A DNA stretch of 64,000 nt, from assembly GCF_002741945.1 (NCBI RefSeq), contig NZ_MDVN01000022.1, positions 62,001 to 126,000 of the forward strand, given 5' to 3'. A program made the translations under genes and the position numbers. The notes beneath the pieces are model-generated. The model searched no databases. It was not told the DNA's origin and was given only the letters and a program-made list of their open reading frames with translations. Positions within the stretch are counted from its first letter, which is position 1. Each line of letters opens with the position of its first letter. Source of the stretch: Gaetbulibacter sp. 4G1. Lineage in GTDB: Bacteria > Bacteroidota > Bacteroidia > Flavobacteriales > Flavobacteriaceae. Below, piece by piece: positions 28,017 through 43,714 of this stretch.

Positions 28017-28090
28017 TCAATTTTATTCCGACAAAGACTGTCTAAAGACAGGATATTTTATCTTATATTTTCAGCAAAAATAAGTAAAAT

Positions 28091-28639
28091 CTAATCGCCT
28101 TTTTCATTTTCCAAAGACATTGCTAGTAATTTTACCATTGTATTATAATTTCTAGCAGTCCCAATTGTTTTGAGTTTTCGTTCAAAAAAATTCATGTTGA
28201 ATTTGGCTTTACCATATCCTTTTTCGCAATAAAAATAAATGCAATCATTAATGATGTAATATTCTTCACCTTCATAAACTTTTTCTGAAGCGATCTTTAC
28301 CAATTCTTCTTCTGGTACATTATGCAACATCGTAAAGTAACTTTTCATTTTTTTTTCTTCAGAAAATGGACAATTATTAAAAATAGTCTGTAGATGTTTT
28401 CTTGTTCTAACTAAAACAGAAACCTCAAAATCAAAATGCGAGATAATTGCATTTTGCATCATTTTTTCAATGTTTTGAGTGCTTGTATCTGAAGATTGGA
28501 AAACTACATTACCGCTTTGTATGTATGTTTTTATATTTTTCAATCCTGATATGGCAAGCAACTCTCGTAACTCTTCCATCGGCACCTTTTTGTGCCCACC
28601 AACATTAATTCCTTTTAATAAAGCAATATAAGTATTCAT
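28091..28639 (-). CDS. DUF1697 family protein
   Basis: A 182-aa cytoplasmic protein with the DUF1697 hallmarks: YIALLKGINVGGHKKVPMEEL at the start, YIQSGNVVF near residue 42 and NYNTMVKLLAM near the C-terminus. The family has no established biochemical role. Its start abuts the stop codon of the HI0933-type flavoprotein gene (no gap), so they are co-transcribed. Confidence 0.85.
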   Translation of the reverse strand: MNTYIALLKGINVGGHKKVPMEELRELLAISGLKNIKTYIQSGNVVFQSSDTSTQNIEKMMQNAIISHFDFEVSVLVRTRKHLQTIFNNCPFSEEKKMKSYFTMLHNVPEEELVKIASEKVYEGEEYYIINDCIYFYCEKGYGKAKFNMNFFERKLKTIGTARNYNTMVKLLAMSLENEKGD

Positions 28640-29851
28640 TTATTTTGATATAGATTTTGCTGCAATGTAAGCTCCTGTCCATGCGTTTTGAAAATTAAAC
28701 CCTCCAGTTATAGCATCAATATTTAATACTTCTCCAGCAAAATACAAGTTTTTGTGCAACTTACTTTCAAATGTTTTAAAGTTTACCTCCTTTAAGTTTA
28801 TACCTCCTGCTGTTACAAATTCTTCTTTAAAAGTACTTTTGCCGTCAACTTTAAAAACCGCTTTAGTTAATTGCATTGCCAAATCTTCCAATTGCTGTTT
28901 ATTAATTTCTGCCCAAGTTTTGGTTTCATGAATATGGGCTGCTAAAACTAATTGTTGCCATAGTCGTTTTGGTAAATCAAATTGCGAAAATTTAAACACT
29001 GTTTTCTTATTTAAATCTTGTTTTAATTGTTTTAGAATAGCTAAACAATCTTCAAACGGTTGTTCAATAAAGTTAACTTCAATAGAAAATTTATAATCGC
29101 GTTTAGCCAATTCTAATGCTCCAAAAGCAGATAATTTTAAAATGGCTGGAGCACTCATTCCAACATGAGTTATAAGTAATGGCCCTTCTGATTCTAAATT
29201 AGACTTTACAACTTTTACCTTTGTATTTTGCGCAACAACTCCAGGAATATTTTTGATGCGCTTGTCTTTTATATTGAATGTAAATAATGATGGAATTGGT
29301 TTTGAAATGGTATGATTTAATTGCTCAAGCAACTTCCACATTTTTGGATTACTTCCTGTTGCTATCAGTACCTTTTCTGAAGTAAAATCACCTTGATTGG
29401 TTTCCAACAACCAGCTTTTAGTATTATTTTGAATAGATTTAACCGAATGGTTATACAAAACATCAACATGATTCTTTTTAACTTGATTTAAAAAGCAGTC
29501 GATAATGGTTTGTGAAGAATTTGAAACTGGAAACATCCGTCCATCCTCTTCAATTTTTAATTCAACGCCTTTTTTCTCAAACCACTCAATAGTATCTCCA
29601 GTCATAAATTGATGAAATGGCCCTAGCAATTCTCTTTCTCCTCTTGGGTAATTTTTTGTTAATTCTGAAGGGATAAATTCGGCATGTGTTACATTACAAC
29701 GCCCACCACCAGAAATTTTAACTTTCTGTAAACCTTCTTTTCCACGTTCAAGAATAGCAACTTTTAAACTTGAATTTTGTTCAGCAATATTTATGGCTGC
29801 AAAAAAACCCGCGGCTCCTCCTCCTATAATAATAACATTGTATGCTTTCAT
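28640..29851 (-). CDS. HI0933/YhiN-family NAD(P)/FAD-dependent oxidoreductase
   Basis: A 403-aa flavoprotein with the FAD motif IIIGGGAAGFFAAIN at the N-terminus, the family marker KISGGGRCNVTHAEF (about 45-59) and the C-terminal FAD site NLYFAGEVLNIDAITGGFNFQNAWTGAYIA. Members are annotated as aminoacetone-oxidase-like or BaiN-like flavoproteins; the physiological substrate is unknown. It is the first gene of a pair with DUF1697 and divergent from the lipoprotein at 29900, with only 48 bp between start codons. Confidence 0.88.
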   Translation of the reverse strand: MKAYNVIIIGGGAAGFFAAINIAEQNSSLKVAILERGKEGLQKVKISGGGRCNVTHAEFIPSELTKNYPRGERELLGPFHQFMTGDTIEWFEKKGVELKIEEDGRMFPVSNSSQTIIDCFLNQVKKNHVDVLYNHSVKSIQNNTKSWLLETNQGDFTSEKVLIATGSNPKMWKLLEQLNHTISKPIPSLFTFNIKDKRIKNIPGVVAQNTKVKVVKSNLESEGPLLITHVGMSAPAILKLSAFGALELAKRDYKFSIEVNFIEQPFEDCLAILKQLKQDLNKKTVFKFSQFDLPKRLWQQLVLAAHIHETKTWAEINKQQLEDLAMQLTKAVFKVDGKSTFKEEFVTAGGINLKEVNFKTFESKLHKNLYFAGEVLNIDAITGGFNFQNAWTGAYIAAKSISK

Positions 29852-29899
29852 AAGTTTTAAAAACGGTGTAAATTTAGCATTATAAATTATCTCTACTAA

Positions 29900-30742
29900 A
29901 TGAATAAGTTTCTTTTATCTTTTATACTACTTACATCTTCTTGCAGTACAGGAAACTTAAAAGTTATTGCTGATTTACCTAAAGCCTTAAACGAAGCTTC
30001 TGGGATTGAAACTAATAATCATTCTGATTTAATATGGATGGTAAATGATGGTGGAAATGCATCTAAATTATTTGGGCTTTCAAGTGATGGAAAAATAAAA
30101 AAAGCATTAAAAATAAATGCCAAAAATAACGACTGGGAAGACTTAGCGTCTGACAAGGAGGGAAACATATATATTGGTGATTTTGGAAATAATGCTAACA
30201 AACGTAAAAATTTAGCCATTTTAAAAGTCAGTGTCGATTCTTTAAACAATAAAGGCAAAATTAATATAGAACGTATTTCATTTAACTATCCTAATCAAAA
30301 TAAATTCCCACCGAAAAAGAAACATTTATATTTTGATTCTGAAGCATTTTTTCATTTTAATGATAGCTTGTACATATTTACTAAAAGCCGTGTAAAAGGT
30401 GATTTTGGTAAAACTGATTTGTACAGAATCCCTGCAAAACAGGGCAAACATATTGCCGAACATGTATCTTCTTTTAATTCCTGCCCAGAAATAGATTGTT
30501 GGATTACTTCTGCAGATATTAGCGATGATGGTAAAAAAATAGTGCTTTTAAACTCAAAATCTGTATGGGTCTTTATCGATTTTAAAGAAACTGATTTTTT
30601 TAGCGGAAAGGCAATAGAATTCCCGTTAAACCACAATTCGCAAAAGGAAAGTATTTGCTTTAAAAATAAAAATACACTTTATATTTCAGATGAAAAGGCA
30701 CATGGAGTTGATGGTAATTTATATAAGCTTGAAATAAATTAA
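29900..30742 (+). CDS. Lipoprotein with beta-propeller-like repeats, unknown function
   Basis: A 280-aa lipoprotein (lipobox TSSC, Cys15). The body has repeated short beta segments: DLIWMVNDGGNASKLFGL, NDWEDLASDKEGNIYIGDFGNNANKRKNL, FDSEAFFHFNDSLYIFTKSR and ADISDDGKKIVLLNSK, which suggest a beta-propeller; the GDFGNN phrase recurs in other Bacteroidota proteins. No named family recognised. It lies just left of the cassette array: 16 bp after its stop the degenerate boundary element begins. Confidence 0.7.
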   Translation: MNKFLLSFILLTSSCSTGNLKVIADLPKALNEASGIETNNHSDLIWMVNDGGNASKLFGLSSDGKIKKALKINAKNNDWEDLASDKEGNIYIGDFGNNANKRKNLAILKVSVDSLNNKGKINIERISFNYPNQNKFPPKKKHLYFDSEAFFHFNDSLYIFTKSRVKGDFGKTDLYRIPAKQGKHIAEHVSSFNSCPEIDCWITSADISDDGKKIVLLNSKSVWVFIDFKETDFFSGKAIEFPLNHNSQKESICFKNKNTLYISDEKAHGVDGNLYKLEIN

Positions 30743-30757
30743 CCCACTATTTCTTAT

Positions 30758-30909
30758 TATATAAAATTATGATTACCTTTATTTAATAAGAATTTTCTAT
30801 CATTTTTTATGGAAACTCAAGAACATAAAAATCATCAAAACTTCCGCATAGCATCCAAAAAAGACCGGATAAAAGGATAAAAGTTCTTTATATAAACAAG
30901 TTGTGTAAC
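30758..30909 (+). repeat. Degenerate left-boundary cassette element
   Basis: Right arm TTTATATAAACAAGTT (30887-30902) resembles the right arms of the other elements (consensus CATAYA CRANNA CGTT), with TAAACA at the 6-nt extra segment and AGTT for CGTT. TATATAAA at 30758-30765 pairs with TTTATATA at 30887-30894. The rest is not clear, so it could be a decayed element or an attI-like boundary. GTTGTGTAAC at 30900 starts the first cassette. Confidence 0.45.
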
Positions 30910-30998
30910 ATTATGAAAAACAGAAACCAATATAGTAATCTAATCAAAATTCGTTTTTTCAAAGGAAAAATGTAACTTTAATCAAATTTATAGAAGTT

Positions 30999-31493
30999 AT
31001 GAAAGTATCTAAATTAATTTCCCCAATCTTCCTTTTAGCGTTTATTATAATATATAGTTGTGGTAGTACAGGAGGTTATTTTAGTAAATCAAAATGTGGT
31101 ATGACATTGATAAATCCTAAAAAGAATTATAAGCAGACCGATTCTATTGTAAAAAGAGGAAGAATAGGTCTAGGAGTTTTAAATGTATTTGAAAAAGTCA
31201 GTGGACTAAAAGATAGTTCTGCAGTTTATGATTTTTATAATAAAAAGATAAGAGAAACAGCAAATTATACACCTCGCGAAGTAGTAGATGCACTGAATTT
31301 TAGAATTGAGAGCTTTTGTTTTAAGCACAAACAATTGGACAAAGACAGGAGAGATTCACAACTACCTCAGTCGAGTAGAAAAAAAGCTGATAGTCTTTAT
31401 TTTGTGAACTTAGATAATATTGAGACTTTTAATAAAATATTACAGGGACAAATATCTAATCCTTTAGACAGTATTGTAAAAAAAAAACCTTAG
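30999..31493 (+). pseudogene. Lipoprotein of unknown function, 5' part of a frameshifted gene
   Basis: The reading frame encodes 164 aa: signal peptide with lipobox IIIYSCGS (Cys about 22), then a helical, charged body. It stops at TAG 31491-31493 right after a run of ten A (31478-31487) encoding KKK. The frame of the next segment is open from 31460 and continues to 32254. Adding one A to the run gives a single 418-aa lipoprotein. No family is recognised. It is the 5' part of the first cassette gene. The shift may be a sequencing error, a true mutation or a slippage switch. Confidence 0.7.
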
Positions 31494-32254
31494 CCCCAAT
31501 TATTAATGGCGCATTTAAGAAAATAGAAATTAAAGATATTCCATATAATTTTTCTTCCGACGAACTTTTAGCTCTTGAAAATTATGTGCCGTTTTTTTGT
31601 AAAATAGAAATTAAAAATGATAATAACCATACTGATTTAAAGTTTCATAACATAGTGATAAATCACGAGGTTCCTAATAGTAAGAAACTAAATAATGATG
31701 ATGAAGATTCTGATTTTGAAAGATGGATGCCATATAATTTAGGGGCTACCTGTTCTTTTGAATATTCAAATCATTTTGATGATGAATCTACTGATGTAAA
31801 TCTATTGGCAGCACAACTGCAGAAAAAGTTGACTAAAGAACAATCTATTAAAATTCAAAATGATATAAATAGAGCAGTCATTCAATCATCAAAAAAAAAG
31901 GATATAATAGAATTAGGTGTATACTTTAAAAACTATTTCTCAAAAGAGTTCAAACTTAACTATGAAAGTTTCCATATTTCATTTAATGACCCTGAAATAT
32001 TTTCATTTTATTTCTTTATTAGAGAGGAAGTGATTGACAATTACTCAAATTTAAGTGTGTTACCAACAGAATCTTACTACGAAGAGTTAGGAAGTCAAAG
32101 CATAAGATTAAAATCTATTAAACCTGATACCGAGGAAATTACGAATAAACTTGTTGATTTAGAAAAACTAAGGGTTTGCATTGAGATTAACACCTCTTCG
32201 ACTAATACTAGTGAGACCTTTTTGAGTAAAAAATGTTTTGAATATAATCTATAG
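31460..32254 (+). pseudogene. 3' part of the frameshifted cassette lipoprotein gene
   Basis: No ATG starts this frame near its beginning; it is open from 31460, and the first usable alternative start is a GTG at 31586. The translation (TLAPIINGAFKKIEIKDIPY, then FCKIEIKNDNNH and so on) is acidic, with many Asp, Glu and Asn, and has no recognised domain. It lies -1 relative to the upstream frame, and the A10 run falls inside the 31460-31490 overlap, which supports one former gene. Whether it is translated alone is doubtful. Confidence 0.65.
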
Positions 32255-32288
32255 AGTTTATTGAGCTCTTTAAAAATATGCTAATAAC

Positions 32289-32424
32289 GTTACACAACAA
32301 CGTGTATAATTAATTGCTCGAGTTTCTCTCTGCCAATCGGAAAATTCTCTGAATTTTCCTCAGTCCAAAACCTTTTGCTAACTTAGTTGCTAATCGCAAC
32401 TAATCATACACAAACACGTTGTAC
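32289..32424 (+). repeat. attC-like cassette element A (126-bp palindromic core)
   Basis: Outer ACAACG (32297-32302) pairs with CGTTGT (32417-32422). Left arm TGTATAATTAATTGC pairs with the right arm, which carries the extra TGTTTG (as reverse complement) between AACG and the paired segment. Central perfect hairpin GGAAAATTC / GAATTTTCC (32339-32347, 32351-32359). Upstream, GTTACACAAC (32289-32298) is the end of the first cassette. Confidence 0.85.
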
Positions 32425-32431
32425 TTAATTT

Positions 32432-33343
32432 ATGTCGAAAAGCAAACCTGGAATCGAATTTGAAAAATTAGCTGAGTCAATATTCAAAAAGTTGATTCGT
32501 GACGACCGATTTGAATCTGTAGAACATAATGTACAACTAATGGGTCAAGATGGTCTTAGGCAAATTGATGTATTAGTGAAAACTAAATCAATAGGCATGG
32601 AATTTAATACCATAATTGAGTGCAAAGATTACAAAAGAAAACTTTCAATAATTTATGTAGATAGCTTCCATTCTAAACTTCTTGATGTAAATGCAAGTAA
32701 AGGCATTCTGGTTTCAAGAAATGGATTTTCTACAAAGGCTATTTCCAAAGCGAAAAGATTGGGTATTACTTTGTGTACAGCTGACGAGGCATCAGATCCA
32801 AACTGGAAATTAAAAGTAGATATTCCAATTGTTTTAGAAGAAATTCAACCAGTTCATTTTAGGTTTACTGGTGAGTTTAACACGCAAGAAATGATTAATA
32901 TTCCTCATGAGAATCTTCCAGTAATAAATGACATTGACCTCACTAAATTCGTAAACGACGGCTGGAAAAATGGAAGTTTACCTTTCAAAAAAACTAAGAA
33001 ACCGCAAAAAGTAACAATTGATAGTTTATCTCCTCCTTATTATATCAAAGCTGAAAATGGAGTTCTTGTAGAAATGAAAAATTTTGAAGTTACTTTCTCA
33101 TTAGAAATTCGATATTATATTTCTAATCTAAATGAATTGAAAAATACTCAAATTTTGAATAATATAACGTCTAGCAGTACCACTATATTCTTCGATGTTA
33201 ACTCTATTACTGATTTGAATTTTAATCCTAAAATAATCCCTAAAACACATTTAAAAAACTACAAAGGATTAACTTTATCTATCAAAATACTAACAGATAT
33301 GGATGATGATTATAAAAAAGTTCAATTTTTTAAAATAAACTAA
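32432..33343 (+). CDS. Mrr-like restriction endonuclease-fold protein (cassette 1)
   Basis: A 303-aa protein with an N-terminal PD-(D/E)XK nuclease fold of the Mrr_cat type: FEKLAESIF helix (10-18), Asp46 in QIDVLVK and Glu63-x-Lys65 in IIECKDYKRK, followed by SKGILVSRNGFSTKA. A DNA-cleaving or defence-related role is likely from the fold. The C-terminal 180 residues are beta-rich and unrecognised (VKVDIPIVLEEIQPVHFRFTGEF onward). It starts 14 bp after the cassette's left end, and its stop TAA (33341) is inside the terminal repeat of the next element. No methyltransferase partner is present, so it is not a classical type II system. Confidence 0.78.
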   Translation: MSKSKPGIEFEKLAESIFKKLIRDDRFESVEHNVQLMGQDGLRQIDVLVKTKSIGMEFNTIIECKDYKRKLSIIYVDSFHSKLLDVNASKGILVSRNGFSTKAISKAKRLGITLCTADEASDPNWKLKVDIPIVLEEIQPVHFRFTGEFNTQEMINIPHENLPVINDIDLTKFVNDGWKNGSLPFKKTKKPQKVTIDSLSPPYYIKAENGVLVEMKNFEVTFSLEIRYYISNLNELKNTQILNNITSSSTTIFFDVNSITDLNFNPKIIPKTHLKNYKGLTLSIKILTDMDDDYKKVQFFKIN

Positions 33344-33479
33344 ATACAACAACGTGTATAGTCAATTGCTTGATTATCGCCTACTTGGAAATTCCTTCGG
33401 AATTTCCTCTGGTTCGTTTTTGTTTACTAACTTAGTCCTAGCCTACGCAACTGAACCATACACGAACACGTTACCACAC
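33341..33479 (+). repeat. attC-like cassette element B (126-bp core)
   Basis: ACAACG (33349-33354) opens the core, which ends CGTTAC (33469-33474). The right arm, as reverse complement, reads TAACG, TGTTCG, TGTATGGTTCAGTTGC, against left TGTATAGTCAATTGC. Central perfect hairpin GGAAATTCC / GGAATTTCC (33387-33395, 33399-33407) with loop TTC. TAAATACAAC (33341-33350) ends cassette 1; GTTACCACAC (33470-33479) starts cassette 2. Confidence 0.85.
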
Positions 33480-33481
33480 AT

Positions 33482-34114
33482 TTGATAAAAATCGAACGTT
33501 CATATAATCCAGAAGAAATTAAACTGTTGAAAAGCAGGAAAAATTCGCTTTGGGACCACTTTGAGAATTTTGGACTAAAATTTATTGGAGTAACATTTGT
33601 ACTTCTTGCACCTCTATTACTTTATGATAAGTTTATTAGTAAAGTCTCGTCTGAAACGCAACTTCTGATTTTAATTCCTTTACTTATAATTTCAATTGGA
33701 ACTGTAATTTATTGGATGAATAAAAACGGAGAAATAGGCTGGAATAAAAAAGTGGAAAACGAAATAAAAAATGGACAAGCTCAAGTTCTGAAAATACAAA
33801 CGGGCAAAGTATTTAAGCGAAAGCAAACTTGGGATTTAGGCTCTGGTTTTTATTTAAAAATATCAGATAATCAGACCCTGTTTTTGCAAGGACAATATTT
33901 TGACGAATTACAATATGGACGGAAATTTCCAAATACTGACTTTGAGATTGTGAGAACCAAACTGACTTTTAACGAATTGATTGACATAAAATCTTTTGGA
34001 AAATACTTAAAACCTGAAAAGAAATTAAAAGCATTTACTAAAGAACAATTTGACAAAAACGAAGTTCATTGGGATGGAGATTTATTGGAAATTCCAATTG
34101 AACAAATAAAATAA
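33482..34114 (+). CDS. Two-helix membrane protein of unknown function (cassette 2)
   Basis: A 210-aa protein with two hydrophobic helices (about 33-52 and 63-81: FIGVTFVLLAPLLLY and LLILIPLLIISIGTVIYW) and a C-terminal soluble domain of about 120 aa (TGKVFKRKQTWDLGSGFYLKI...). I do not recognise the family. No ATG fits the start; TTG at 33482 is the first possible start and lies 2 bp after the cassette's left terminus, so the true start may be a nearby non-ATG codon. It ends 4 bp before the right terminal repeat of its cassette. Confidence 0.6.
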   Translation: MIKIERSYNPEEIKLLKSRKNSLWDHFENFGLKFIGVTFVLLAPLLLYDKFISKVSSETQLLILIPLLIISIGTVIYWMNKNGEIGWNKKVENEIKNGQAQVLKIQTGKVFKRKQTWDLGSGFYLKISDNQTLFLQGQYFDELQYGRKFPNTDFEIVRTKLTFNELIDIKSFGKYLKPEKKLKAFTKEQFDKNEVHWDGDLLEIPIEQIK

Positions 34115-34118
34115 AAAC

Positions 34119-34256
34119 GTGTGGTAACAATGTGTATCATTCATTGCTAGTAAAGGCTTACTTACGAAAATCCTCGCGGATTTTCTATTCGGTTTGTATT
34201 TGCTAAATTAGGTGTTTAAAACACGTAACAAACCATATACAACCACGTTGTATTTA
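34119..34256 (+). repeat. attC-like cassette element C (125-bp core)
   Basis: ACAATG (34127-34132) opens and CGTTGT (34246-34251) closes the core. The right arm reads, as reverse complement, AACG, TGGTTG, TATATGG; left arm TGTATCATTCATTGC. Central hairpin GAAAATCC / GGATTTTC (34166-34173, 34178-34185) with 4-nt loop TCGC. GTGTGGTAAC (34119-34128) ends cassette 2; GTTGTATTTA (34247-34256) starts cassette 3. Confidence 0.85.
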
Positions 34257-34296
34257 ATACCAGAACAAATTAACGTTCCTCTTTTATATTAAAAAA

Positions 34297-34347
34297 TTGT
34301 AGTATTTAAAATATTATATATATTTGCACTGACTATACGGTCAGTCA
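34297..34347 (+). promoter_or_regulatory. Promoter and TetR operator inside cassette 3
   Basis: TTG (34297-34299), 19 nt, TATATTTG (34319-34326) fits the Bacteroidota -33/-7 pattern TTG, 19-20 nt, TAnnTTTG. Directly downstream lies TGACT, ATACGGTC, AGTCA (34330-34347), an inverted repeat where the transcript would begin, 10 bp before the TetR ATG. This suggests an autoregulated promoter driving TetR, GNAT and RsgA. Confidence 0.8.
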
Positions 34348-34357
34348 ATTTAATTTT

Positions 34358-34894
34358 ATGGATAAAAAAGAACAAATAATAGAAATCGCAACCAAACTAT
34401 TTTCTGAAAATGGATTTGAAAACACACCTATTTCAAAAATATGCGAGGAAAGTAATGTTTCCAAAGGATTAGTTTTTCATCATTTCAAATCTAAAGATGA
34501 ATTGTTAAGGGAAATATTTTCAAGCACTACAGAAACAATAATTAAATTAAATGAATCTGTTAACAAAGAACAATCTCCAATCAAACAATTGTTGGATTTA
34601 ATCAATTCATTCTTTTCGCAAATAGAAAAGGATAAATTATTTTTTCAATTGAATTTAAACATTATGATTCAACCAAAAACAAGGGTGCTATTAAACGATT
34701 TAATAAAAGAAAGAAGTGCTTTTATCTTAAATTCTGTAACACAACTTTTTGAACAAATAGATACAGAAAGTGCAGAGATTAAAAGTTATTTATTTATAGC
34801 AGAACTAGATGGTATTGCACTTAACTATTTAGGAATTTTTGATGATTACCCATTAGATAAAATCAAAAACCAACTAATAAAAAAATATACTTAA
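34358..34894 (+). CDS. TetR family transcriptional regulator (cassette 3)
   Basis: A 178-aa TetR repressor: N-terminal HTH KEQIIEIATKLFSENGFENT, ISKICEESNVSKGLVFHHFKSKDELL (about 8-48), then an alpha-helical ligand/dimer domain with no clear signature. It binds DNA as a dimer and is released by a small ligand. Its operator-like inverted repeat overlaps the promoter at 34319-34347, so it probably represses its own operon, which continues with the GNAT gene 1 bp further on and then rsgA. The ligand is not predictable. Confidence 0.88.
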   Translation: MDKKEQIIEIATKLFSENGFENTPISKICEESNVSKGLVFHHFKSKDELLREIFSSTTETIIKLNESVNKEQSPIKQLLDLINSFFSQIEKDKLFFQLNLNIMIQPKTRVLLNDLIKERSAFILNSVTQLFEQIDTESAEIKSYLFIAELDGIALNYLGIFDDYPLDKIKNQLIKKYT

Positions 34895-34895
34895 A

Positions 34896-35678
34896 ATGGA
34901 ATTTAAAATAACACAAGACACGAATAAAATTAACGAATTAAGAGCACAGTTATATTCAAAATTAACAGCTCCTATTGATGCAATGTGGGAGTTATTATAC
35001 ATAGCATCAGCTAAAAACTATCTAATTTATAGTGAAGAAAAAAATATAGGATATTGCTCCATTGACAACAATCATAGCCTTCTGCAACTATTTTTTTTAG
35101 ATGGTTTTAAAGCTAAAATGAAAACTGTAGTTGAATCTCTTATTGAGCAAAAATTAATAGTTTCAGCAAGTTTAAGTTCAAACGAACCAATAGCATTTAA
35201 CACTTGTTTATCACTTTCAAAATCAATCAAGCCAAATACGTTTTGCTTTCAGCATACAAATTCAGAAGTTGATGAAAATTCATCTTTAAATCTTGAATTA
35301 GTATCAGAAACTGATATTCCAGAAATCAAATCGTTTTTAAAAGAACAAATTGGAATGGATGATACCTTTGGCTATACTGAAAACTTGGTAAGCAGAAAAG
35401 AAATTTACTTTATAAAAGAAGGCAATAAAATTATTACTACTAGTGAATGTAGATGGAGTGATACACAGCCAGAAATAGCCGATTTGGGAATTATTGTAAA
35501 TAAAAATCAGCAAGGAAAAGGAATTGCTACTCAAGTTCTGAAATTGCAAGCAAACAGAGTGATACAAGCAAACAGAAAACCAATTTGCTCAACAACAATT
35601 GACAATATTGGTTCACAAAAAGCAATTGAAAGAGCTGGTTTTTATTGTTCAAATATCATTTTTGATATTCAATTTTAA
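34896..35678 (+). CDS. GNAT family N-acetyltransferase (cassette 3)
   Basis: A 260-aa protein whose C-terminal half (about 135-260) is a GNAT domain: the acetyl-CoA binding LGIIVNKNQQGKGIATQVLK (Q-x-x-G-x-A form) and the C-terminal TTIDNIGSQKAIERAGFY are present. The N-terminal half is unlike GNAT at sequence level but has a similar length, so it may be a degenerate duplicate. The substrate is unknown. One base after the TetR stop and 10 bp before the RsgA ATG, it is in the same operon, so the TetR ligand may be linked to it. Confidence 0.8.
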   Translation: MEFKITQDTNKINELRAQLYSKLTAPIDAMWELLYIASAKNYLIYSEEKNIGYCSIDNNHSLLQLFFLDGFKAKMKTVVESLIEQKLIVSASLSSNEPIAFNTCLSLSKSIKPNTFCFQHTNSEVDENSSLNLELVSETDIPEIKSFLKEQIGMDDTFGYTENLVSRKEIYFIKEGNKIITTSECRWSDTQPEIADLGIIVNKNQQGKGIATQVLKLQANRVIQANRKPICSTTIDNIGSQKAIERAGFYCSNIIFDIQF

Positions 35679-35688
35679 AGTTAGAAAA

Positions 35689-36753
35689 ATGACAATAAAC
35701 GATTTAGGTTTTTATAAACAATTAGAAATATATCGACAAGAACATCAATTGGACTCTTTTGAAGTTGCTCGTGTAGTTTCTGAACATAAAGATAGATACA
35801 CAATTAAAACCGTTTCTAACGAATTGGAGGCTGAACTTATTGGAAATTTAAGATTTACAGCAGAATTCAAATACGATTTACCTGTTGTCGGAGATTGGGT
35901 AGCTATTAATGAATATGATGACAATAAGGCGTTAATCCATTTTGTATATCCAAGAACGTCTATATTAGCAAGAAAAGCAGTTGGTAAACTTGGTAAAACT
36001 CAAATAATTGCAACTAATATTGATCTTGGCTTAATTGTTCAATCAGTAAATCGAGATTTTAATTTAAACCGAATTGAACGCTATTTAACTATTTGTAATT
36101 CGGCTAATATTAGACCTATTGTTATTATTAGTAAGATTGATCTAATCCAAACATCAGAATTAAATGAAATTTTAAATAAGACTAAAGAACGAATTAAAGG
36201 CGTTTTAATAATTGCAATTAGCAATCAATCAAAAGATGGGATTAGTGAAATAAAACAACAATTAACAAAAGGAAAAACGTATTGTTTGTTAGGTTCTTCG
36301 GGAGTTGGAAAATCAACGCTAATAAATACCTTAATTGGAAAAAATATTATGAATACTGGAAATATTAGTGAAAGTATTGATAGAGGAAAGCACGTTACAA
36401 CTCGCAGAGAATTAATTGTTACAGAAAATGGAATTTTAATTGATAATCCTGGAATGAGAGAAGTTGGAATAACTGACAATTCCAAAGGTCTTGAATTGAC
36501 TTTTGATGAAGTTTCCAATTTAACATTCGACTGTAAATTTAATAACTGTACACATACAAATGAAAAAGGTTGTGCTATTATAAATGCTTTGGAAAACGGA
36601 GAATTAGATTTGGAATCATATCAAAATTTTCGAAAAATGGAACGAGAACGACTATTTTTCGACTCGAGTTCAGAGGAACGTAAAAAGAAAGATAAAGATT
36701 TAGGAAAATTGATTAAAAATGTAGTTAAAGAAAGAAAAAGAAACAAGTACTAA
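35689..36753 (+). CDS. rsgA: RsgA-like ribosome small-subunit GTPase (cassette 3)
   Basis: A 354-aa circularly permuted GTPase. An OB-like N-terminal domain (about 20-90), then G4 SKID (148-151), G1 GSSGVGKST (202-210), G3 DNPG (252-255) and a zinc site C282, C287, H289, C295 (C-x4-C-x-H-x5-C) match RsgA/YjeQ, which checks late 30S maturation. The start at 35689 fits the OB fold; an earlier in-frame ATG at 35599 would overlap the GNAT gene and add 30 aa with no homology. A cassette-borne RsgA is unusual; the chromosomal copy would be expected elsewhere in the genome. Stop at 36753 is inside the cassette's end repeat. Confidence 0.88.
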   Translation: MTINDLGFYKQLEIYRQEHQLDSFEVARVVSEHKDRYTIKTVSNELEAELIGNLRFTAEFKYDLPVVGDWVAINEYDDNKALIHFVYPRTSILARKAVGKLGKTQIIATNIDLGLIVQSVNRDFNLNRIERYLTICNSANIRPIVIISKIDLIQTSELNEILNKTKERIKGVLIIAISNQSKDGISEIKQQLTKGKTYCLLGSSGVGKSTLINTLIGKNIMNTGNISESIDRGKHVTTRRELIVTENGILIDNPGMREVGITDNSKGLELTFDEVSNLTFDCKFNNCTHTNEKGCAIINALENGELDLESYQNFRKMERERLFFDSSSEERKKKDKDLGKLIKNVVKERKRNKY

Positions 36754-36889
36754 ATACAACAACGTATATAAAAAATAGCGGCTTTAATGCTTAAACGAAA
36801 ATGAATTTTATAAATTTAAGGTCAGTTATAATCTGAAAAATTAGTGCGTAAAAATCCGCTACTTTTCATATACAAGAACGTTGTAACAC
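36747..36889 (+). repeat. attC-like cassette element D (126-bp core)
   Basis: ACAACG (36759-36764) and CGTTGT (36879-36884) enclose the core. Left arm TATATAAAAAATAGCGG pairs with right arm TATATGAAAAGTAGCGG (15 of 17) after the extra TTCTTG in the right arm. The central hairpin is weak here (5 bp). TAAATACAAC (36751-36760) ends cassette 3; GTTGTAACAC (36880-36889) starts cassette 4. Confidence 0.83.
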
Positions 36890-36890
36890 A

Positions 36891-37520
36891 TTACTCAAAA
36901 AACTCTGGCAATAAATTTTGAAATTCCTTTTTTCCTTTAGAAGTAAGAAAAGGGAATAATATACTTAAGAATGTATTTACGTGATAATCTATATTTCCTG
37001 TATTCAATTTATTCGAATAAAGATGACTAGAATATAACCAAGTATTACCATAATCAATCATTCTTTCCGCTAGAAAATTATATTCTAATTCAAAAGATGA
37101 TTCTTTCATCAAATCTTTTACTTTCATTTTTTTAAATAACAAGAAACACCCCTCAATTCTTTTTTTATATACCTGTTGAAAATGTTTTTGTACTGTACTA
37201 TTTATACAAATAAGATTATATAAGTCAGTCCAAAAAAAATTATAATCTAACATTCTCCTCATACTTCTCTCAATATCAATTTTAACTTGTTCAATTGAGA
37301 CTTCAACATTAGCTAACAGATCAATTCTTTCGTCAAATTCTGAAACCATTTCAAAATACAAGGCCTCAAAAATATCTTCTCGTTTTTTGTAATGATAATT
37401 TAAATTTCCCGGACTCATATTCATTTTTAAGGCTATCATTCTTATAGTTACATTGTGATATCCTTTTTCATTGAATAAAGTCTTAGCTGCTTCTAAAATT
37501 AGTTTCTTTTTTTTGCTCAT
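36891..37520 (-). CDS. TetR family transcriptional regulator (cassette 4)
   Basis: A 209-aa TetR regulator with HTH KLILEAAKTLFNEKGYHNVTIRMIALKMNMSPGNLNYHYKKREDIFEAL (about 5-52) and a helical C-terminal domain. It is divergent from the hydrolase gene; two direct repeats of TTAGTAAACTTGTCCTAAA (37520-37538 and 37549-37567) fill the shared 54-bp gap and are the likely operators for both genes. This is the only cassette gene on the - strand. The ligand is unknown. Its C-terminal FFE is near the cassette's left end. Confidence 0.86.
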   Translation of the reverse strand: MSKKKKLILEAAKTLFNEKGYHNVTIRMIALKMNMSPGNLNYHYKKREDIFEALYFEMVSEFDERIDLLANVEVSIEQVKIDIERSMRRMLDYNFFWTDLYNLICINSTVQKHFQQVYKKRIEGCFLLFKKMKVKDLMKESSFELEYNFLAERMIDYGNTWLYSSHLYSNKLNTGNIDYHVNTFLSILFPFLTSKGKKEFQNLLPEFFE

Positions 37521-37567
37521 TAGTAAACTTGTCCTAAATAAATATTTTTAGTAAACTTGTCCTAAAA
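37520..37567. promoter_or_regulatory. Two direct operator repeats between divergent cassette-4 genes
   Basis: TTAGTAAACTTGTCCTAAA occurs at 37520-37538 and 37549-37567 (19 bp, 29-bp spacing). Each is a partial inverted repeat (TTAG...CTAA). The first covers a TTG at 37529-37531 and the second covers TAAACTTG at 37552-37559, 20 nt later, fitting the -33/-7 spacing with one -7 mismatch. Likely TetR binding sites that block the hydrolase promoter. Confidence 0.72.
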
Positions 37568-37574
37568 ATACAAA

Positions 37575-38432
37575 ATGAAATCATTATATAAATCACAAAT
37601 TGGAAAAAAAGAGATTATAAGTCTTTATGATCAAAAATTAAAGGACTTAAATATTGATTATAAATACAAACTCATCAATACGAGTTTTGGAAAAACCAAT
37701 ATTATCGTGATTGGAGATTCCTCGAAACCACCAATATTAATAATCCACGGTTCAAATGGATGTGCTCCAATTTCATTAGAAACCTATCCAAATCTTTACA
37801 AAGATTTTCAAGTATTTGCAATAGATGCTCTTGCGCAACCCAATAAAAGTGCGGAAAACAGGTTGAGTATGAAAGACGACAGTTATGGTTTTTGGATGAA
37901 TGAAATTATAAATAAACTAAGCCTAACCGATGTAACTATGGCTGGTTTTTCGTTTGGAGGACTAATTATACTCAAAACATTAATTCAAGATGAAAAAAAC
38001 ATTAAAGAAGTGTTTTTATCTGCTCCTGCTTTTATTGTAAATGGTAATCCTATAGTTTTATTATTTAAGGTTTTTATTCCTATGAAGCTCTATATGAAAA
38101 CTAAAAAATCAAAGTATCTTGAAAAATTTTTAAACACTCTTTTTACAGAACCAGATACATTCGCTCTTGAGTATTTATCAAAAGTGTTTTTATATTTTAA
38201 TATGGACTTCACACCAGTTCCTGTAATAAAAGATTCTGAAGCCAAATTGATAACCACTCCAATAAATATATTTGCCGCAAAAAAAGATATTATGTTTCCT
38301 GGAATAAAAATGCTTAAACGTGCTAGCAAAATTTTTCCATCTTTAAACAATACTATTTTATTAGAAAACTCTAAACACGTCCAAAACAGAATTGATAATA
38401 ATAAAATAGAAAAAATAATATCGAGAAAATAA
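37575..38432 (+). CDS. Alpha/beta-hydrolase (cassette 4)
   Basis: A 285-aa cytoplasmic alpha/beta-hydrolase. The oxyanion-hole segment IIHGSNGC (about 53-60), nucleophile elbow MAGFSFGGLIIL (Ser about 121) and a C-terminal KHVQ (His about 270) fit a Ser-Asp-His triad; the Asp in NIFAAKKDIMFPG is the likely acid. Substrate is unknown; hydrolase plus TetR pairs often handle a small ester or lactone that is also the inducer (inference). Start is the ATG 10 bp after the second operator repeat, and the stop is 2 bp before the cassette's right end. Confidence 0.84.
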   Translation: MKSLYKSQIGKKEIISLYDQKLKDLNIDYKYKLINTSFGKTNIIVIGDSSKPPILIIHGSNGCAPISLETYPNLYKDFQVFAIDALAQPNKSAENRLSMKDDSYGFWMNEIINKLSLTDVTMAGFSFGGLIILKTLIQDEKNIKEVFLSAPAFIVNGNPIVLLFKVFIPMKLYMKTKKSKYLEKFLNTLFTEPDTFALEYLSKVFLYFNMDFTPVPVIKDSEAKLITTPINIFAAKKDIMFPGIKMLKRASKIFPSLNNTILLENSKHVQNRIDNNKIEKIISRK

Positions 38433-38512
38433 CGTATTACAAGAAAGGCTAAAAAAACAGAACCTAACCTACCAAACCGATTTTCCGTATTTTAGCTGGA
38501 ACGTTAGGTGTA
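38426..38512 (+). repeat. Short variant cassette element E
   Basis: Between cassettes 4 and 5. The end of cassette 4 (AATAACGTATTACAAG, 38428-38443) is the reverse complement of its start at 36880 with 12 of 16 matches. GGCTAAAA and TTTTAGCT form the paired arms, with the extra TTCC in the right arm before CGTTAGG (38502-38508). Shorter (about 75-80 bp) than the others. ACCTAAC (38462-38468) also pairs exactly with GTTAGGT (38503-38509), which fits the canonical integron R''/R' consensus. Confidence 0.6.
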
Positions 38513-38531
38513 ATTTGACCAAGCCTTGAAA

Positions 38532-39077
38532 ATGATATTAAAACATGAAAATTTCGTAATCGAAATAACAGATGAATCTGATTTGGATTCAGCAAAATTT
38601 AAGAAACAATATCCAGCCGATTTAGGTCATAAAATAGAATATCAACCTTCCTCTAAACATGGAATTCGAGTAATAGAAAGCGGAATTGAAAAATGTAGCG
38701 CAATATTATTGGAAAATGGAGGCGCAACTAGAATTTCCGAAAACTCATTCCTTATAAAAAAGGACAGAATCTATATCTGCTGTTCTGACAAAGTTTATTG
38801 TTTAAATATAACGGATTTATCTGCTAACTGGAGAAAACAATTTGACATTGCAACCTGTTTTGGAATTTACGAATTTGAAGATGACTTTGTTATACACGGA
38901 GAACTTCAGATTAGCCGAATCGACAAAAACGGAAACGAAAAATGGACTTTCGGAGCCAAAGATATTTTTGTGAATCCAGATGGAAAAAAAGAATTTAAAA
39001 TTAATGGCGACAGAATTGAATTGACAGATTGGGATGGGACGAAATACGAATTAAACTCTGACGGAATTGAAATGTAA
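38532..39077 (+). CDS. Beta-rich protein of unknown function (cassette 5)
   Basis: A 181-aa protein with start ATG at 38532 (TTG at 38526 adds two residues). It has short repeated strands: ILLENGGATRISENSFLI, IYICCSDKVYCLNI, GIYEFEDDFVIHGELQISRIDKNGNEKWTFGAKDIFV and YELNSDGIEM. The GxxIWxF...DIFV pattern resembles small hypothetical proteins found singly in many bacteria; the repeat of bladelike strands suggests a beta-propeller or lipocalin-like fold. No function known. It sits in a cassette whose start (GTTAGGTGTA, 38503) matches its end (TACACCTA-GCAAC, 39084-39096). Confidence 0.65.
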   Translation: MILKHENFVIEITDESDLDSAKFKKQYPADLGHKIEYQPSSKHGIRVIESGIEKCSAILLENGGATRISENSFLIKKDRIYICCSDKVYCLNITDLSANWRKQFDIATCFGIYEFEDDFVIHGELQISRIDKNGNEKWTFGAKDIFVNPDGKKEFKINGDRIELTDWDGTKYELNSDGIEM

Positions 39078-39080
39078 AAA

Positions 39081-39222
39081 AACTACACCTAGCAACGTGT
39101 ATAATTCATTGTTCATTCTATGAGCTTTTGGAAAATCATACGGATTTTCCTATGTTGTGCTTTTGTTTACTTGTTTAGTTCCTAAACAACATAACGAAAT
39201 CTCACACGAATACGTTGGCATG
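39081..39222 (+). repeat. attC-like cassette element F (127-bp core)
   Basis: GCAACG (39092-39097) and CGTTGG (39213-39218) enclose the core. Left arm TGTATAATTCATTG pairs with right arm TGTGAGATTTCGTTATG after the extra TATTCG. Central hairpin GGAAAATC / GATTTTCC (39130-39137, 39143-39150), 5-nt loop. TACACCTA-GCAAC (39084-39096) ends cassette 5. Confidence 0.82.
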
Positions 39223-39276
39223 TATTTGCGAGAAAGACATACGTTACTATTATAAAAATTATTGGATAAAAAAATC

Positions 39277-39906
39277 ATGACTGTAATAAATCAACTTTCA
39301 TCATCATTAGGACATAAAGGGAATGATGCGAATATAGCTTTAGCTAAGGAACTTGCTGAAACTGAAAATAGTGATGCTATTAAAGAACTTGTTGAGAATC
39401 TAAAAAACAAGGATAAAAAAATACAAGCTGATTGTATAAAAACACTTTATGAAGTTGCCTATATAAAACCAGATTTGATTGCGAGTTACTATTCAGAATT
39501 TTTAGAATTATTATCAAACAAAAACAATAGATTGGTTTGGGGTGGAATGATTGCCTTAATGACAATTACAGATTTGAAAAGTAAGGAATTATTTGAATCA
39601 TTAGATTTGATTTCAGATACGGTAAATCAAGGTTCCATTATAACGATTGATTCAGGAGTTGAGATTTACGCAAAGCTTAATAAATACTCGGAATATCAAG
39701 ACAAAGTAGAAAATTTGTTGATTGACCAATTATGGAAATGCCCGATAAAACAATTGCCTAAGTATATGGAAAAATCAATTATTTCGATAACTAAATGGAA
39801 TAAGGAGATTTATAAAAAAATAATTAATGAACGAAAACCGGAATGTGAAAAAGACTCTCAAGTAAAAAGACTTGATAAAGTGTTGAAACAGATTGATAAG
39901 ATATAA
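39277..39906 (+). CDS. HEAT-like helical protein (cassette 6)
   Basis: A 209-aa all-helical protein: the segment KELVENLKNKDKKIQADCIKTLYEVAYIKPDLIASY and NNRLVWGGMIALMTITDLKSKELFES (about 45-110) read as HEAT/armadillo-type repeats, suggesting a protein- or nucleic-acid-binding scaffold. ATG at 39277 gives a clean N-terminus; TTG at 39262 would add five residues. It is last in the array and no right terminal element follows it within the window (I looked for ACATGCCAAC and found none), so its cassette end has been lost or is too decayed. Confidence 0.65.
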   Translation: MTVINQLSSSLGHKGNDANIALAKELAETENSDAIKELVENLKNKDKKIQADCIKTLYEVAYIKPDLIASYYSEFLELLSNKNNRLVWGGMIALMTITDLKSKELFESLDLISDTVNQGSIITIDSGVEIYAKLNKYSEYQDKVENLLIDQLWKCPIKQLPKYMEKSIISITKWNKEIYKKIINERKPECEKDSQVKRLDKVLKQIDKI

Positions 39907-39930
39907 AACGCATTATGAGAATTAGTATAG

Positions 39931-40602
39931 CTAATCTTTAGTAGAATGCTGAATGTATTTACCAACTACAATAGCAGTAACAATTACTAAATAAAACTGC
40001 CCCATTAAACCTGTTATAATAGCTGCTTTTTGAGATAAAGGAGTAGTAGGAACAATATCGCCGTAACCAATAGTCATTAAGGTTATGTAAGAATAATACA
40101 TAATAGAATCTAAGCCTAAAACGACTTTACTGCCATCTATTACAATTCCTTTAAACGAATTAGGCTCTAATAATTCTATAGTAGCAAATAGAAAAAAAGC
40201 AATAAACCCTAAAGAAATATAACCACACATTAAACCAATAACTACAGTATTATTAACCCGTTTAGCTTTCCATATTTGCATGATAATTTGGTGGGTAACT
40301 ATGATATAAAAAATAAAATAAACACTTAATCTTATTAAAAAATTATCTTGAAAATCTGTATCTCTACTTATCATACTACTACCAAAAACAAATAAAGAAA
40401 TGGTAAATAGTATAATTAAAAACCACATCAATTTTTTCTTTTTAGAAATAAGCAAAATTCCTGCTATTGTATTGACTAAAAATAAAATTGGGGTTAAAAC
40501 ATTTTCAAAAAATTCACTAGGAAACAGTAAAGACCCAAACAATATAAATAATTGTGTAGCGAAAAAAATCTCAAATCTATGTTTATATAAATCCTTAATC
40601 AT
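39931..40602 (-). CDS. Potassium-channel-like ion channel protein
   Basis: A 223-aa membrane protein of about six hydrophobic segments with the K+ selectivity filter MTIGYGDIVPTTPLSQKA near residue 180, followed by a final helix (AIITGLMGQFYLVIVTAIVV). The Ion_trans_2 type pore (2-TM) is clear; there is no RCK domain. The start overlaps the last 8 bp of the RND pump gene, so it is translated after the pump in the same transcript. Its physiological role next to an efflux operon is not known. Confidence 0.85.
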   Translation of the reverse strand: MIKDLYKHRFEIFFATQLFILFGSLLFPSEFFENVLTPILFLVNTIAGILLISKKKKLMWFLIILFTISLFVFGSSMISRDTDFQDNFLIRLSVYFIFYIIVTHQIIMQIWKAKRVNNTVVIGLMCGYISLGFIAFFLFATIELLEPNSFKGIVIDGSKVVLGLDSIMYYSYITLMTIGYGDIVPTTPLSQKAAIITGLMGQFYLVIVTAIVVGKYIQHSTKD

Positions 40603-43600
40603 TCAATAGGGTTTCATTGAACTCATAATCTTTATAATTCACCTTAAAAAAGGCACTGTATAATGAAGGTATAAATAACAGTGTAATTACTGTACCAAAT
40701 AATAACCCAACCATTATGCCTATAGCCATGCCTTCCCACATTTCACCTCCAGAAATATATAATGGTATTAAGCCTAAAACGGTAGTAAATGTAGCCAGAA
40801 GTATGGGGCGAAAGCGTTGTAAACAGGCTGCTATAACTGCATCCTGTTCTGTTCTACCTAAATCTCGTTCTTCTATTTCCATACGGTCAATAAGTACGAT
40901 AGCATTATTAATTACAATTCCTGCTAAAGAGATTACTCCTAAAAACGGCATAAACCCAAACGCTTCTCTAAAAATTAACAACCCAATTACTACACCAATA
41001 ATTCCTAAAGGAATAGTTAACACTACCATGGTCATTTTTCTGAAAGAATTAAACTGAATAATTAAAAGTAAAACAATAATAAACCCAGAAACAGGCAAGT
41101 ACCCAATTACTGAGCCCATACTTTCTGCTGTTTGTTTGGCATCACCTCCAAACTCATAGCGATAGTCTTGTGGCCAATTTTGCTGTTGTTCTTCTAACCA
41201 AGGTGTTATCACTTTGGTGATTTCAGATGCATTCCCACTTGCTCTTAATTCACTAGTTACATTTATAGTTCTACGTAAATCAAAACGTTTAATTTTAGAA
41301 TATTGCCACTGAGGAACTATAGAAGCCACTTGTAATAATGGAACACTCGCTCCTGAGTTTTGCGAATAAATATTTAAAGTTTCTAATGACGCCAAAGATT
41401 GCTGTTGATTATCATCACTGCGCATTAGTATTGGAATCGATTTATCATCTTCACGATATTCACCTGTTTGAAAACCGTCTAAAACTGTCCGTAGAGACGT
41501 TGCGATATCTTCACTACTAACACCAGCGGTTTGCGCTCTGTTTTGATCTATTTCTATTAAGAATTTTTTACTTTTTGGCCCCCAGTCATCCTTAACATTT
41601 TTGGTTCCTGAAATACTTGATAGTTTTAATTTAACAGCTTCAGCTATTTGAGATAACTCATCTGGATTCTGACCTGAGACTTTAATTTCTATCGGCGTTC
41701 CTCCTCCTCCAGCGCCTAAAGCACCTACTTTAATATCTGCATTTGGAAAACTATTAAACGTAAACTTATCTAGTTTCGCAACCATTTTATTGTTTTCATT
41801 AAAAGATGAGGTGTTCACTAAAATGTGTGCGTAATTAGAATTTGCTTCATCTGGCGAATACCCTAAATCATACGACTCTGGTCCTTCTCCTATGTATGAT
41901 GACCAATCTGAAATTCCAGTAGTTCTACTATCATTAACCTGCAACGAATCTGCCATAAATTGCTCAATACGTTTTACAACTTCTGTAGTACGCTCTATTT
42001 TGTTTCCTTCTGGAAGATTAATGTTTATAGTAATCATATTACGATCGCTATCTGGAAAGAAAATAAATGGAATTTTGGTAAAACCATACAAAGAGGCAAA
42101 GAAAATAAGGAAAATGCCAATAATCACTTTCCACTTATTTAACAATGCCAGCAGAATAAGGTCTTTATAATACACTTTAAGTTTATTAATAATTCTATCA
42201 ATAAAGCTTGGTTTCTTTTCCCCTTTAGGGGCTACTTTTAAAAACAGGTAACAGAATAATGTAATAACTGTTAATGCTATTATCCAAGATGATAGTAATG
42301 CAATTGTTATCACAACAAAAATAGGTCCTACAATGTCTCCCATTGTTGTAGGTGATAAAAAGAATGCTAAAAAGGCGGCAGACGTGGTTAAAGTAGAAAT
42401 GAGTAATGGCATCCATAATTCAGAAAAAGCTTCCAACGCTGCTTGCTTTTTGTCTATGCCTTGTTCCATTTTAACCATAATAGTCTCGGCGACCACAATG
42501 GCATTATCCACTAACATTCCTAAAGCCATAATCAAGGCTGCTAACGTCACTTGATTTAATCCTATATTTATAATTCCCATAATCATTAAAGTCATAATGG
42601 TTACAATAGGAATCAAACTGGCAATAACAAAGCCTGTTCTAAAACCCAGAAAGATTAACATAACTAATAATACAATACCTATAGATTGCATAAGGTTTAC
42701 AATAAAGTCGCCAACTTTAACATCTATGTATGTATCTAAAGAAGATACTCTGGTAAGCTCTAGTCCTATTGGTAATTTTTGTTGCCATTCGTTTACAACT
42801 TTATTTACTTCTTCTCCTAGTGTAATTACATTAGCATTTTCTTTTAAGTTAACATGTAATGAAATAGCATCTTTCCCATTAATTCTTACTTTTTGAGTTG
42901 GTGGGTCTATATAAGCCTTTCTTATAGTTGTGATATCTCCTAATTTTACCAATTGCGAGCCATTGCTATTACCAACAGATATAAGCATGTTTCTTATATC
43001 TTCAACCGAATTAAAATTTCCAGTAGGCTCCAATATAATACGCTCATCTCCTAAATTAATTTGCCCGCCAGAATTTAAAATATTAGTAGAAGCTATAGAT
43101 TGTTGTAGTTTAGAAGCAGAGAGCCCATATTCTTTTAACCTCGTATTGTCAAACTCAACAAAAATGCGCTCTTCTTGTTCTCCTCCCATTTCAACTTTTG
43201 CAGCATCAGGTATTTTGATAAGTGCATCTTTTATATCATCTGCATATGTTTTCATTTCTGCATAGGAATAACCGTCAGAAGTTAGGCCAACTACAATACC
43301 ATACACATCTCCTACACCATCATCGTTTAAAGAAGGGTTTACACCCTGAGGTAATCCTTGTAATGCATTTAATTTTCTACGAAGTCGATCCCAAACACCT
43401 TGCATTTTTCCTGATGCTACTTCATCTTTTAAGGTTACGGTAACCACAGACAAGCCTGTTCTAGAAGTACTAGAAACTTCTTTTAATTCAGGGAGTTCTT
43501 GGGCTACTTTTTCTATTTTATCGGTTACTAATTGCTCAACACGTTCTGGTCCAGCGCCTGGAAATTGAGATACTACCGTAGCAACTCTTACCGTATAGGG

Positions 43601-43714
43601 AGGCATACTATCTCGAGACAAACCAGAATACATAGTTAAGCCCATAAGTATTATGGTACCTAGCACCATAAATGTAATTCTGTTTTTATCTATTGAAAAT
43701 TGTGCTAAATTCAT
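40595..43714 (-). CDS. RND-family efflux permease (inner-membrane pump)
   Basis: A 1039-aa polytopic RND permease of the hydrophobe/amphiphile type. The N-terminal FMVLGTIILMGLTMYSGL helix, the porter loop with PPYTVRVATVVSQFPGAGPERVE and the TM4 motif GMLVDNAIVVAETI are recognisable, with the usual two repeats of six helices. It exports substrates with proton drive through a membrane-fusion protein and outer-membrane channel encoded upstream in the same operon. The gap to the adaptor gene is 17 bp. No regulator gene is adjacent. Confidence 0.92.
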   Translation of the reverse strand: MNLAQFSIDKNRITFMVLGTIILMGLTMYSGLSRDSMPPYTVRVATVVSQFPGAGPERVEQLVTDKIEKVAQELPELKEVSSTSRTGLSVVTVTLKDEVASGKMQGVWDRLRRKLNALQGLPQGVNPSLNDDGVGDVYGIVVGLTSDGYSYAEMKTYADDIKDALIKIPDAAKVEMGGEQEERIFVEFDNTRLKEYGLSASKLQQSIASTNILNSGGQINLGDERIILEPTGNFNSVEDIRNMLISVGNSNGSQLVKLGDITTIRKAYIDPPTQKVRINGKDAISLHVNLKENANVITLGEEVNKVVNEWQQKLPIGLELTRVSSLDTYIDVKVGDFIVNLMQSIGIVLLVMLIFLGFRTGFVIASLIPIVTIMTLMIMGIINIGLNQVTLAALIMALGMLVDNAIVVAETIMVKMEQGIDKKQAALEAFSELWMPLLISTLTTSAAFLAFFLSPTTMGDIVGPIFVVITIALLSSWIIALTVITLFCYLFLKVAPKGEKKPSFIDRIINKLKVYYKDLILLALLNKWKVIIGIFLIFFASLYGFTKIPFIFFPDSDRNMITININLPEGNKIERTTEVVKRIEQFMADSLQVNDSRTTGISDWSSYIGEGPESYDLGYSPDEANSNYAHILVNTSSFNENNKMVAKLDKFTFNSFPNADIKVGALGAGGGGTPIEIKVSGQNPDELSQIAEAVKLKLSSISGTKNVKDDWGPKSKKFLIEIDQNRAQTAGVSSEDIATSLRTVLDGFQTGEYREDDKSIPILMRSDDNQQQSLASLETLNIYSQNSGASVPLLQVASIVPQWQYSKIKRFDLRRTINVTSELRASGNASEITKVITPWLEEQQQNWPQDYRYEFGGDAKQTAESMGSVIGYLPVSGFIIVLLLIIQFNSFRKMTMVVLTIPLGIIGVVIGLLIFREAFGFMPFLGVISLAGIVINNAIVLIDRMEIEERDLGRTEQDAVIAACLQRFRPILLATFTTVLGLIPLYISGGEMWEGMAIGIMVGLLFGTVITLLFIPSLYSAFFKVNYKDYEFNETLLND

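Follow-up and report, generated by a model that had tools for sequence, protein, structure and literature searches.

Integrons, with their integrase (IntI), attI and attC sites, are among the described systems closest to the locus presented here. IntI is recognised by an additional domain, which is used in surveys, and in the accessible parts of two papers this domain is held necessary for integron recombination (PMC2426708, PMC9668308). The accessible text of PMC8618304 describes cassettes as mostly carrying one ORF, some two, and some with promoters of their own. Within the Bacteroidetes/Chlorobi group, the complete integrons found by IntegronFinder 2 are those of Chlorobi, Ignavibacteriae and Salinibacter, as far as the accessible part of PMC9024848 goes. 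Among titles, beginnings of abstracts and open papers we found no literature describing the Flavobacteriaceae arrays discussed below, although a description may exist elsewhere.

We analysed a 64,000-nucleotide stretch of the Gaetbulibacter sp. 4G1 genome (3.89 Mb, 25 contigs), positions 62001-126000 of contig C21 (genome G000), hereafter the window. It holds an array without a recombinase gene, in which an attI-like site is followed by at least five cassettes; the genome's other array, on contig C23, begins behind a tyrosine recombinase. In these arrays, as in integrons, an attI-like site lies downstream of the recombinase gene, the cassettes stand in tandem, all in one direction and each ending in an imperfect palindrome, the crossover triplet is GTT, cassette ends are complementary, and clusters without an integrase occur elsewhere in the genome. 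Unlike in integrons, the recombinase is without the additional IntI-specific domain and its gene is read towards the array, the right box after GTTR is free instead of following GTTRRRY, and the sites are of about 130 bp and belong to one sequence family.

We consider it probable that the Flavobacteriaceae have an integron class of their own, in which the recombinase has lost the IntI-specific domain or was always without it, the attI core is ATATAAACAAGTT, the attC-like sites span about 130 bp, and large self-regulated cassettes circulate, such as one encoding TetR, GNAT and RsgA2 (an inducible second 30S-assembly factor plus an acetyltransferase). If the arrays work, a gene-capture system of most Flavobacteriaceae has so far been overlooked, and it becomes possible to test directly whether the extra domain is needed to recombine folded attC sites. 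As the trio suggests, an entire inducible operon, with a spare ribosome-assembly GTPase among its products, can be held in such a cassette, and expression would therefore be independent of place in the array.

The window array and the operon in its fourth cassette

The attI-like region and the recombinase-less cassette array form an inserted block at 30725-39931 (+), delimited by flanks that align to the congener G240. The attI-like region lies at 30764-30909 (+), with the core ATATAAACAAGTTGTGTAAC at 30890-30909 and the G of the crossover GTT at 30900; window 30764-30927, which holds the class core given above, is 75% identical (123/164) to the sequence that directly follows the recombinase gene in the congener G006. 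A model, R1, was built on 22 attC-like sites, taken from this genome and a Psychroserpens locus (L051). It finds five sites in the window, all on the + strand: 32292-32424 (99.1 bits), 33344-33476 (112.1 bits), 34122-34253 (123.7 bits; DNA fold z -4.8), 36754-36886 (99.2 bits) and 39087-39220 (89.1 bits). The sites begin near AAC and finish with GTT, and as folded single-stranded DNA five of six strands reached z -3.3 to -4.8 against shuffles, and one -2.0. An Rfam search of window 31500-40000 returned no match.

The GTT positions divide the array into cassettes, all read on the + strand. Cassette 1 (30901-32418) has two ORFs with no Pfam match (30999-31493 and 31586-32254), and its two ends, GTTGTGTAAC at the start and GTTACACAAC at the finish, are reverse complements; the latter thereby also matches the attI-like region (GTTGTGTAAC). 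Cassette 2 (32419-33470) encodes a protein resembling restriction endonucleases (Mrr_cat in Pfam, 32432-33343), possibly a defence protein, and cassette 3 (33471-34247) a 210-aa ORF with no Pfam match (33482-34114). Cassette 4, of 2,633 bp (34248-36880), is the TetR-GNAT-RsgA cassette; the GTT of site 3 is its left end and site 4 holds its right end, and over a length of 10 nt GTTGTATTTA, at its start, agrees with the reverse complement of CTAAATACAAC, at its end (pair GTTGTATTTA / TAAATACAAC). Cassette 5 (36881-39214) contains a TetR gene on the - strand (36891-37520), an alpha/beta hydrolase gene named by eye (37575-38432) and an ORF at 38526-39077, as read from ORFs and Pfam matches. It is split by a divergent site-like stretch (38433-38510), and because TAGGTGTA behind the GTT recurs inverted before site 5 as ACTACACCTAGCAAC, it may be two cassettes. 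Window 36891-38432 also looks self-regulated, as its TetR and hydrolase genes point away from each other on either side of a spacer in which TAGTAAACTTGTCCTAAA stands twice in direct orientation.

The original prediction had called the trio a cassette, and the R1 sites, the complementary ends and the attI-like region bear this out independently; we have little doubt about the anatomy and mobility of cassette 4. Its size is unusual: cassette bodies have a median of 676 bp, and 10 of 198 are longer than 2,300 bp. A single ORF of at least 80 aa was found in 161 of 219 cassettes and three or more in 10, a group from which the trio is absent, being scored as two ORFs (overlapping reading frames).

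Cassette 4 carries a tight operon on the + strand, downstream of a promoter-like box and a palindrome. Its genes encode a TetR-family regulator (178 aa, 34358-34894), a two-domain GNAT acetyltransferase (260 aa, 34896-35678; Acetyltransf_19 PF18015, 2e-30, plus a GNAT match) and RsgA2, a second RsgA-type GTPase (354 aa, ATG at 35689, end at 36753; RsgA_GTPase PF03193, 3e-48; TIGR00157, 181 bits, cut-off 100). The gaps are 1 nt between TetR and GNAT and 10 nt between GNAT and RsgA2. The three closely spaced genes had been placed correctly. All three are under purifying selection, with dN/dS of about 0.07-0.31 against the Polaribacter locus L050, and lower against L051 and L052. The regulator belongs to the TetR family by its N-terminal TetR_N helix-turn-helix (PF00440, 8e-16) and by the palindrome statistics given below. 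For the acetyltransferase, the Pfam matches, an AlphaFold model (pLDDT 91.5) and a structure match all give a GNAT fold: the model resembles 3iwg, a function-unassigned GNAT of Colwellia psychrerythraea, over its whole length (TM 0.94, 26% identity), and distant tandem GNATs were the other structures found. Kasugamycin acetyltransferase was rejected as an identity, the match being weak (19 bits, cut-off 390).

The box consists of TTG at 34297-34299, 19 nt, and TATATTTG at 34319-34326 (+), an arrangement that we take to be a Bacteroidota-type promoter; its place is conserved in relatives. Behind it, over the expected transcription start, lies the palindrome ACTGACTATACGGTCAGT (34328-34345, no strand assigned), also conserved in relatives. 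Both elements can be read directly and are present as originally described, the inverted repeat before TetR falling at 34330-34334 (TGACT) and 34343-34347 (AGTCA). The claim that the operon has its own promoter and operator is supported by the conservation of box and palindrome, not by the promoter match alone: TTG-N18-20-TAnnTTTG occurs 7 times in the window versus 4-9 times in five shuffles, which is chance level and no evidence by itself. We compared 22 upstream regions, those of the window and of 21 TetR relatives across Bacteroidota. In 16 of the 22, the last 62 nt contain an inverted repeat whose 5-nt arms are perfect and include at least two G/C, versus 3.06 expected from dinucleotide shuffles, and these repeats mostly lie directly behind a TAnnTTTG-like box. 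The spacing varies: one form is ACTGAC-N6-GTCAGT, the other spans 22 bp and has CACGTG-like bases at its centre. From its place and conservation, we infer that the palindrome is a TetR operator covering the start site.

With its repressor gene first, a palindrome over the start site and an enzyme gene next, the trio resembles TetR-type autoregulated resistance or metabolism operons, and differs from them in being packed whole in a cassette and in having no efflux pump. TetR would repress its own operon by binding ACTGAC-N6-GTCAGT, the palindrome that covers the transcription start, a small ligand would release it, and the GNAT, of the small-molecule type, would acetylate a compound related to the ligand. 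Because it has its own promoter, the trio would need no array promoter and could work in fourth place. As an explanation of the whole, the best is that the trio is one mobile integron-type cassette carrying a complete self-regulated operon, and we think this likely.

RsgA2 and the possible working of the trio

RsgA2 resembles RsgA (YjeQ/EngC, small-subunit-dependent GTPase A) in its circularly permuted GTPase, its zinc finger (C-x4-C-x-H-x5-C) and its passing score with TIGR00157. In contrast to the usual RsgA it is an extra copy, predicted to be TetR-regulated, carried on a cassette, and with an SKxD form of G4. All G motifs are present, as had been predicted: G1 GSSGVGKS, G2 GKHVTT, G3 DNPG and G4 SKID, the last departing from NKxD. 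SKxD is the commonest G4 form in the RsgA2 clade (26 of 36 parsed relatives, 5 of 41 being unparsed), and the zinc finger CxnCxHxnC, here CKFNNCTHTNEKGC, is kept in 36/36 parsed relatives. Had this been the only rsgA of the genome, the original prediction would have failed; a housekeeping rsgA lies at C3:307307, its product 32% identical to RsgA2, and housekeeping RsgA is likewise present in 34/34 examined genomes that hold RsgA2.

Differing from the housekeeping protein at 68% of positions, with GTPase motifs and zinc finger intact, RsgA2 might add 30S-maturation capacity when housekeeping RsgA is limiting, under drug, salt or cold stress. Drugs that bind the 30S subunit have been reported to inhibit RsgA, and the drug link of the trio rests on these reports; we found no literature on RsgA and neomycin. 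The role first proposed for RsgA2, to protect ribosome assembly or adjust it in response to the TetR ligand, is plausible only.

At E up to 1e-60, RsgA2 is found in 30 of 299 family genomes, and the congeners G006 and G240 gave no match. There are 184 RsgA2-like plasmid records, all below 60% identity. Seen from the GNAT, TetR lies upstream in 21 of 28 loci (about 440 bp away in L057 and L058), full-length RsgA2 downstream in 12, and the full TetR-GNAT-RsgA order occurs in 10. Because RsgA2 is often alone and 16 of the 28 GNAT loci have no full-length RsgA2 adjoining, the three functions need not be coupled, and we give the functional coupling of GNAT with RsgA2 somewhat less than an even chance.

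In the likeliest alternative, the role of RsgA2 lies in general stress (cold, salt) or in dosage, unrelated to the GNAT substrate or to a drug. Most of the 30 family genomes with RsgA2 have it apart from TetR-GNAT, and the neighbourhoods of these stand-alone copies contain no recurring partner gene, as this alternative would have it. Against it, the 10 loci in full order show the three genes in company, and they were kept together when moved as a cassette; we regard general stress or dosage as a real possibility, if not the one that we favour. Alternatively, TetR-GNAT may be the working unit and RsgA2 a hitchhiker, since TetR-GNAT is commoner than the trio and in one locus (L054) is followed only by an RsgA2 remnant (residues 1-40). 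This is unlikely, as RsgA2 in the window is intact and under purifying selection (dN 0.019, dS 0.062 against L050). We return to the reading in which RsgA2 contributes a function: TetR-GNAT is more widespread than the trio and RsgA2 also occurs without the pair, so RsgA2 may have a rationale of its own.

The recombinase at the head of the arrays

The C23 array (locus L036) begins behind the gene of a 370-aa tyrosine recombinase (C23:61105-62214). The protein scores 212 bits with an archaeal XerA / integron integrase model (cut-off 220) and 196 bits with the integron integrase model TIGR02249 (cut-off 265), the latter match being broken at profile positions 180-238. The nearest model already bears the NCBI family name "site-specific tyrosine recombinase/integron integrase". 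Its nearest solved structure is XerA (5hxy), followed by IntI4 (2a3v). The distance from GLRxGE to HxLRH is 91-92 residues in 14/14 recombinases versus 133 in 6/6 IntI, and 96-98 in the genome's two Xer-like proteins; the recombinase thus lacks the IntI-specific insertion. R228, K253, H317, R320, H343 and Y352, which we take to be the catalytic residues, are invariant in 28/28 recombinases. In a tree of recombinases, IntI and Xer, which has long branches, the support of 40/38 is too low to decide whether the recombinases form one group next to IntI.

Of the 299 family genomes, 137 contain relatives of the recombinase (E up to 1e-70). An attI-like core stands behind the stop of 27 of 30 recombinase genes, 3 of the 30 having fewer than 150 bases left on the contig, and the end of the first cassette is complementary in 11 of 12 arrays. 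R1 sites were found in 16 of 20 further stretches downstream of a recombinase, with all 56 sites on the recombinase strand; the four site-less stretches are L190 and L192, of about 200 bases each, and L184 and L187. Arrays of this kind, with a tyrosine recombinase that lacks the IntI-specific domain at their head, seem to pervade the Flavobacteriaceae. The cassettes are probably moved by the C23 recombinase, which is co-oriented with its own array and would act in trans on the recombinase-less array of the window.

A canonical IntI from elsewhere could instead move the cassettes, the adjacent recombinase doing something else. This would fit with the IntI-specific domain being described as necessary, in the accessible parts of PMC9668308 and PMC2426708, and with the roughly 40 residues missing between GLRxGE and HxLRH in the flavobacterial protein. 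We find it improbable: IntI scored over the cut-off in 0 of 299 family genomes versus 84 of 296 genomes of a phylum sample, a positive control by which the search is able to detect IntI, whereas the recombinase without the domain is common in the family, keeps its catalytic residues, and is found with attI-like cores and co-oriented arrays. Recombination by this recombinase, without an IntI-specific domain, is quite likely; the signs of attI x attC recombination are indirect, namely the transferred trio and the empty site described below.

Two recombinase relatives, L125 (G007) and L128 (G241), have no array behind them (stretches L184 and L187) and no clear attI-like core, and may do another job. 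The first cassette of the C23 array (L036 16105-16941) encodes a 278-aa protein with a KKVFVVHGHDNELKE stretch, which to us looks like a TIR-like nucleotide-binding domain. In plasmid records of Acinetobacter and others (L162, L163, L165), a truncated relative of the recombinase (TnpF), 56% identical over residues 144-370, lies directly upstream of tet(X3)/tet(X5). Neither an attI core nor any site scoring more than 17.6 bits was found in these records, and the placing of tet(X), as if it had once been a first cassette, is suggestive only.

Mobility and spread of cassettes

The flanks of the window block align to G240 (locus L167) with 90.2% identity over 25001-30724 and 93.1% over 39932-46000. 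In G240 the two matches are separated by 20 bp, so 30725-39931 is an insertion that G240 does not have. We conclude that the window block is a recent insertion, with a clean empty site in this congener; the flank gene of the window was not obtained from the congener G006. The trio has also moved between species, since its three genes are 97.0-97.3% identical in DNA to those of Polaribacter L050, while the housekeeping RsgA proteins of that Polaribacter and of Gaetbulibacter sp. 4G1 are only 71% identical.

We compared the six bases after each GTT with the reverse complement of those before the next AAC in 198 neighbouring site pairs less than 4 kb apart, drawn from 243 sites in 21 loci. The bases were equal in 92-94% of cases versus 29-54% in 1000 shuffles, and 178 of the 198 pairs were exact over four bases, so that the cassettes are bounded by attC-like sites with complementary R'' and R'. 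The 15 arrays in this comparison were picked for strong sites or a nearby recombinase, and the window, L036 and L051 had helped to build R1.

Psychroserpens L051 has a site on either side of the trio (R1 91.0 and 108.2 bits); in Flavobacterium LMO8 (L063) the trio stands behind an upstream site of 46.6 bits, with the downstream end matched by eye. The trio loci L052 and L050 look decayed, and no sites were seen at the others. That there is no cassette at all, and the trio is an ordinary chromosomal operon flanked by unrelated repeats, as its chromosomal, site-less occurrence in seven loci (L060, L066, L069, L071, L073, L074 and L075) might suggest, is highly improbable given complementary ends here and in 177 other exact pairs, the block missing from G240, and the operon standing between sites in L051 and L063 too. 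In a GNAT tree the cassette-borne copies fall in two places, which may reflect one gain with losses.

Sites of this kind occur in 258 of 299 family genomes, with at most 11 scored per genome. In Gaetbulibacter sp. 4G1 itself, contigs C19 and C22 and other parts of C21 contain further sites, mostly single and far from both arrays, as if cassettes had been inserted outside arrays.
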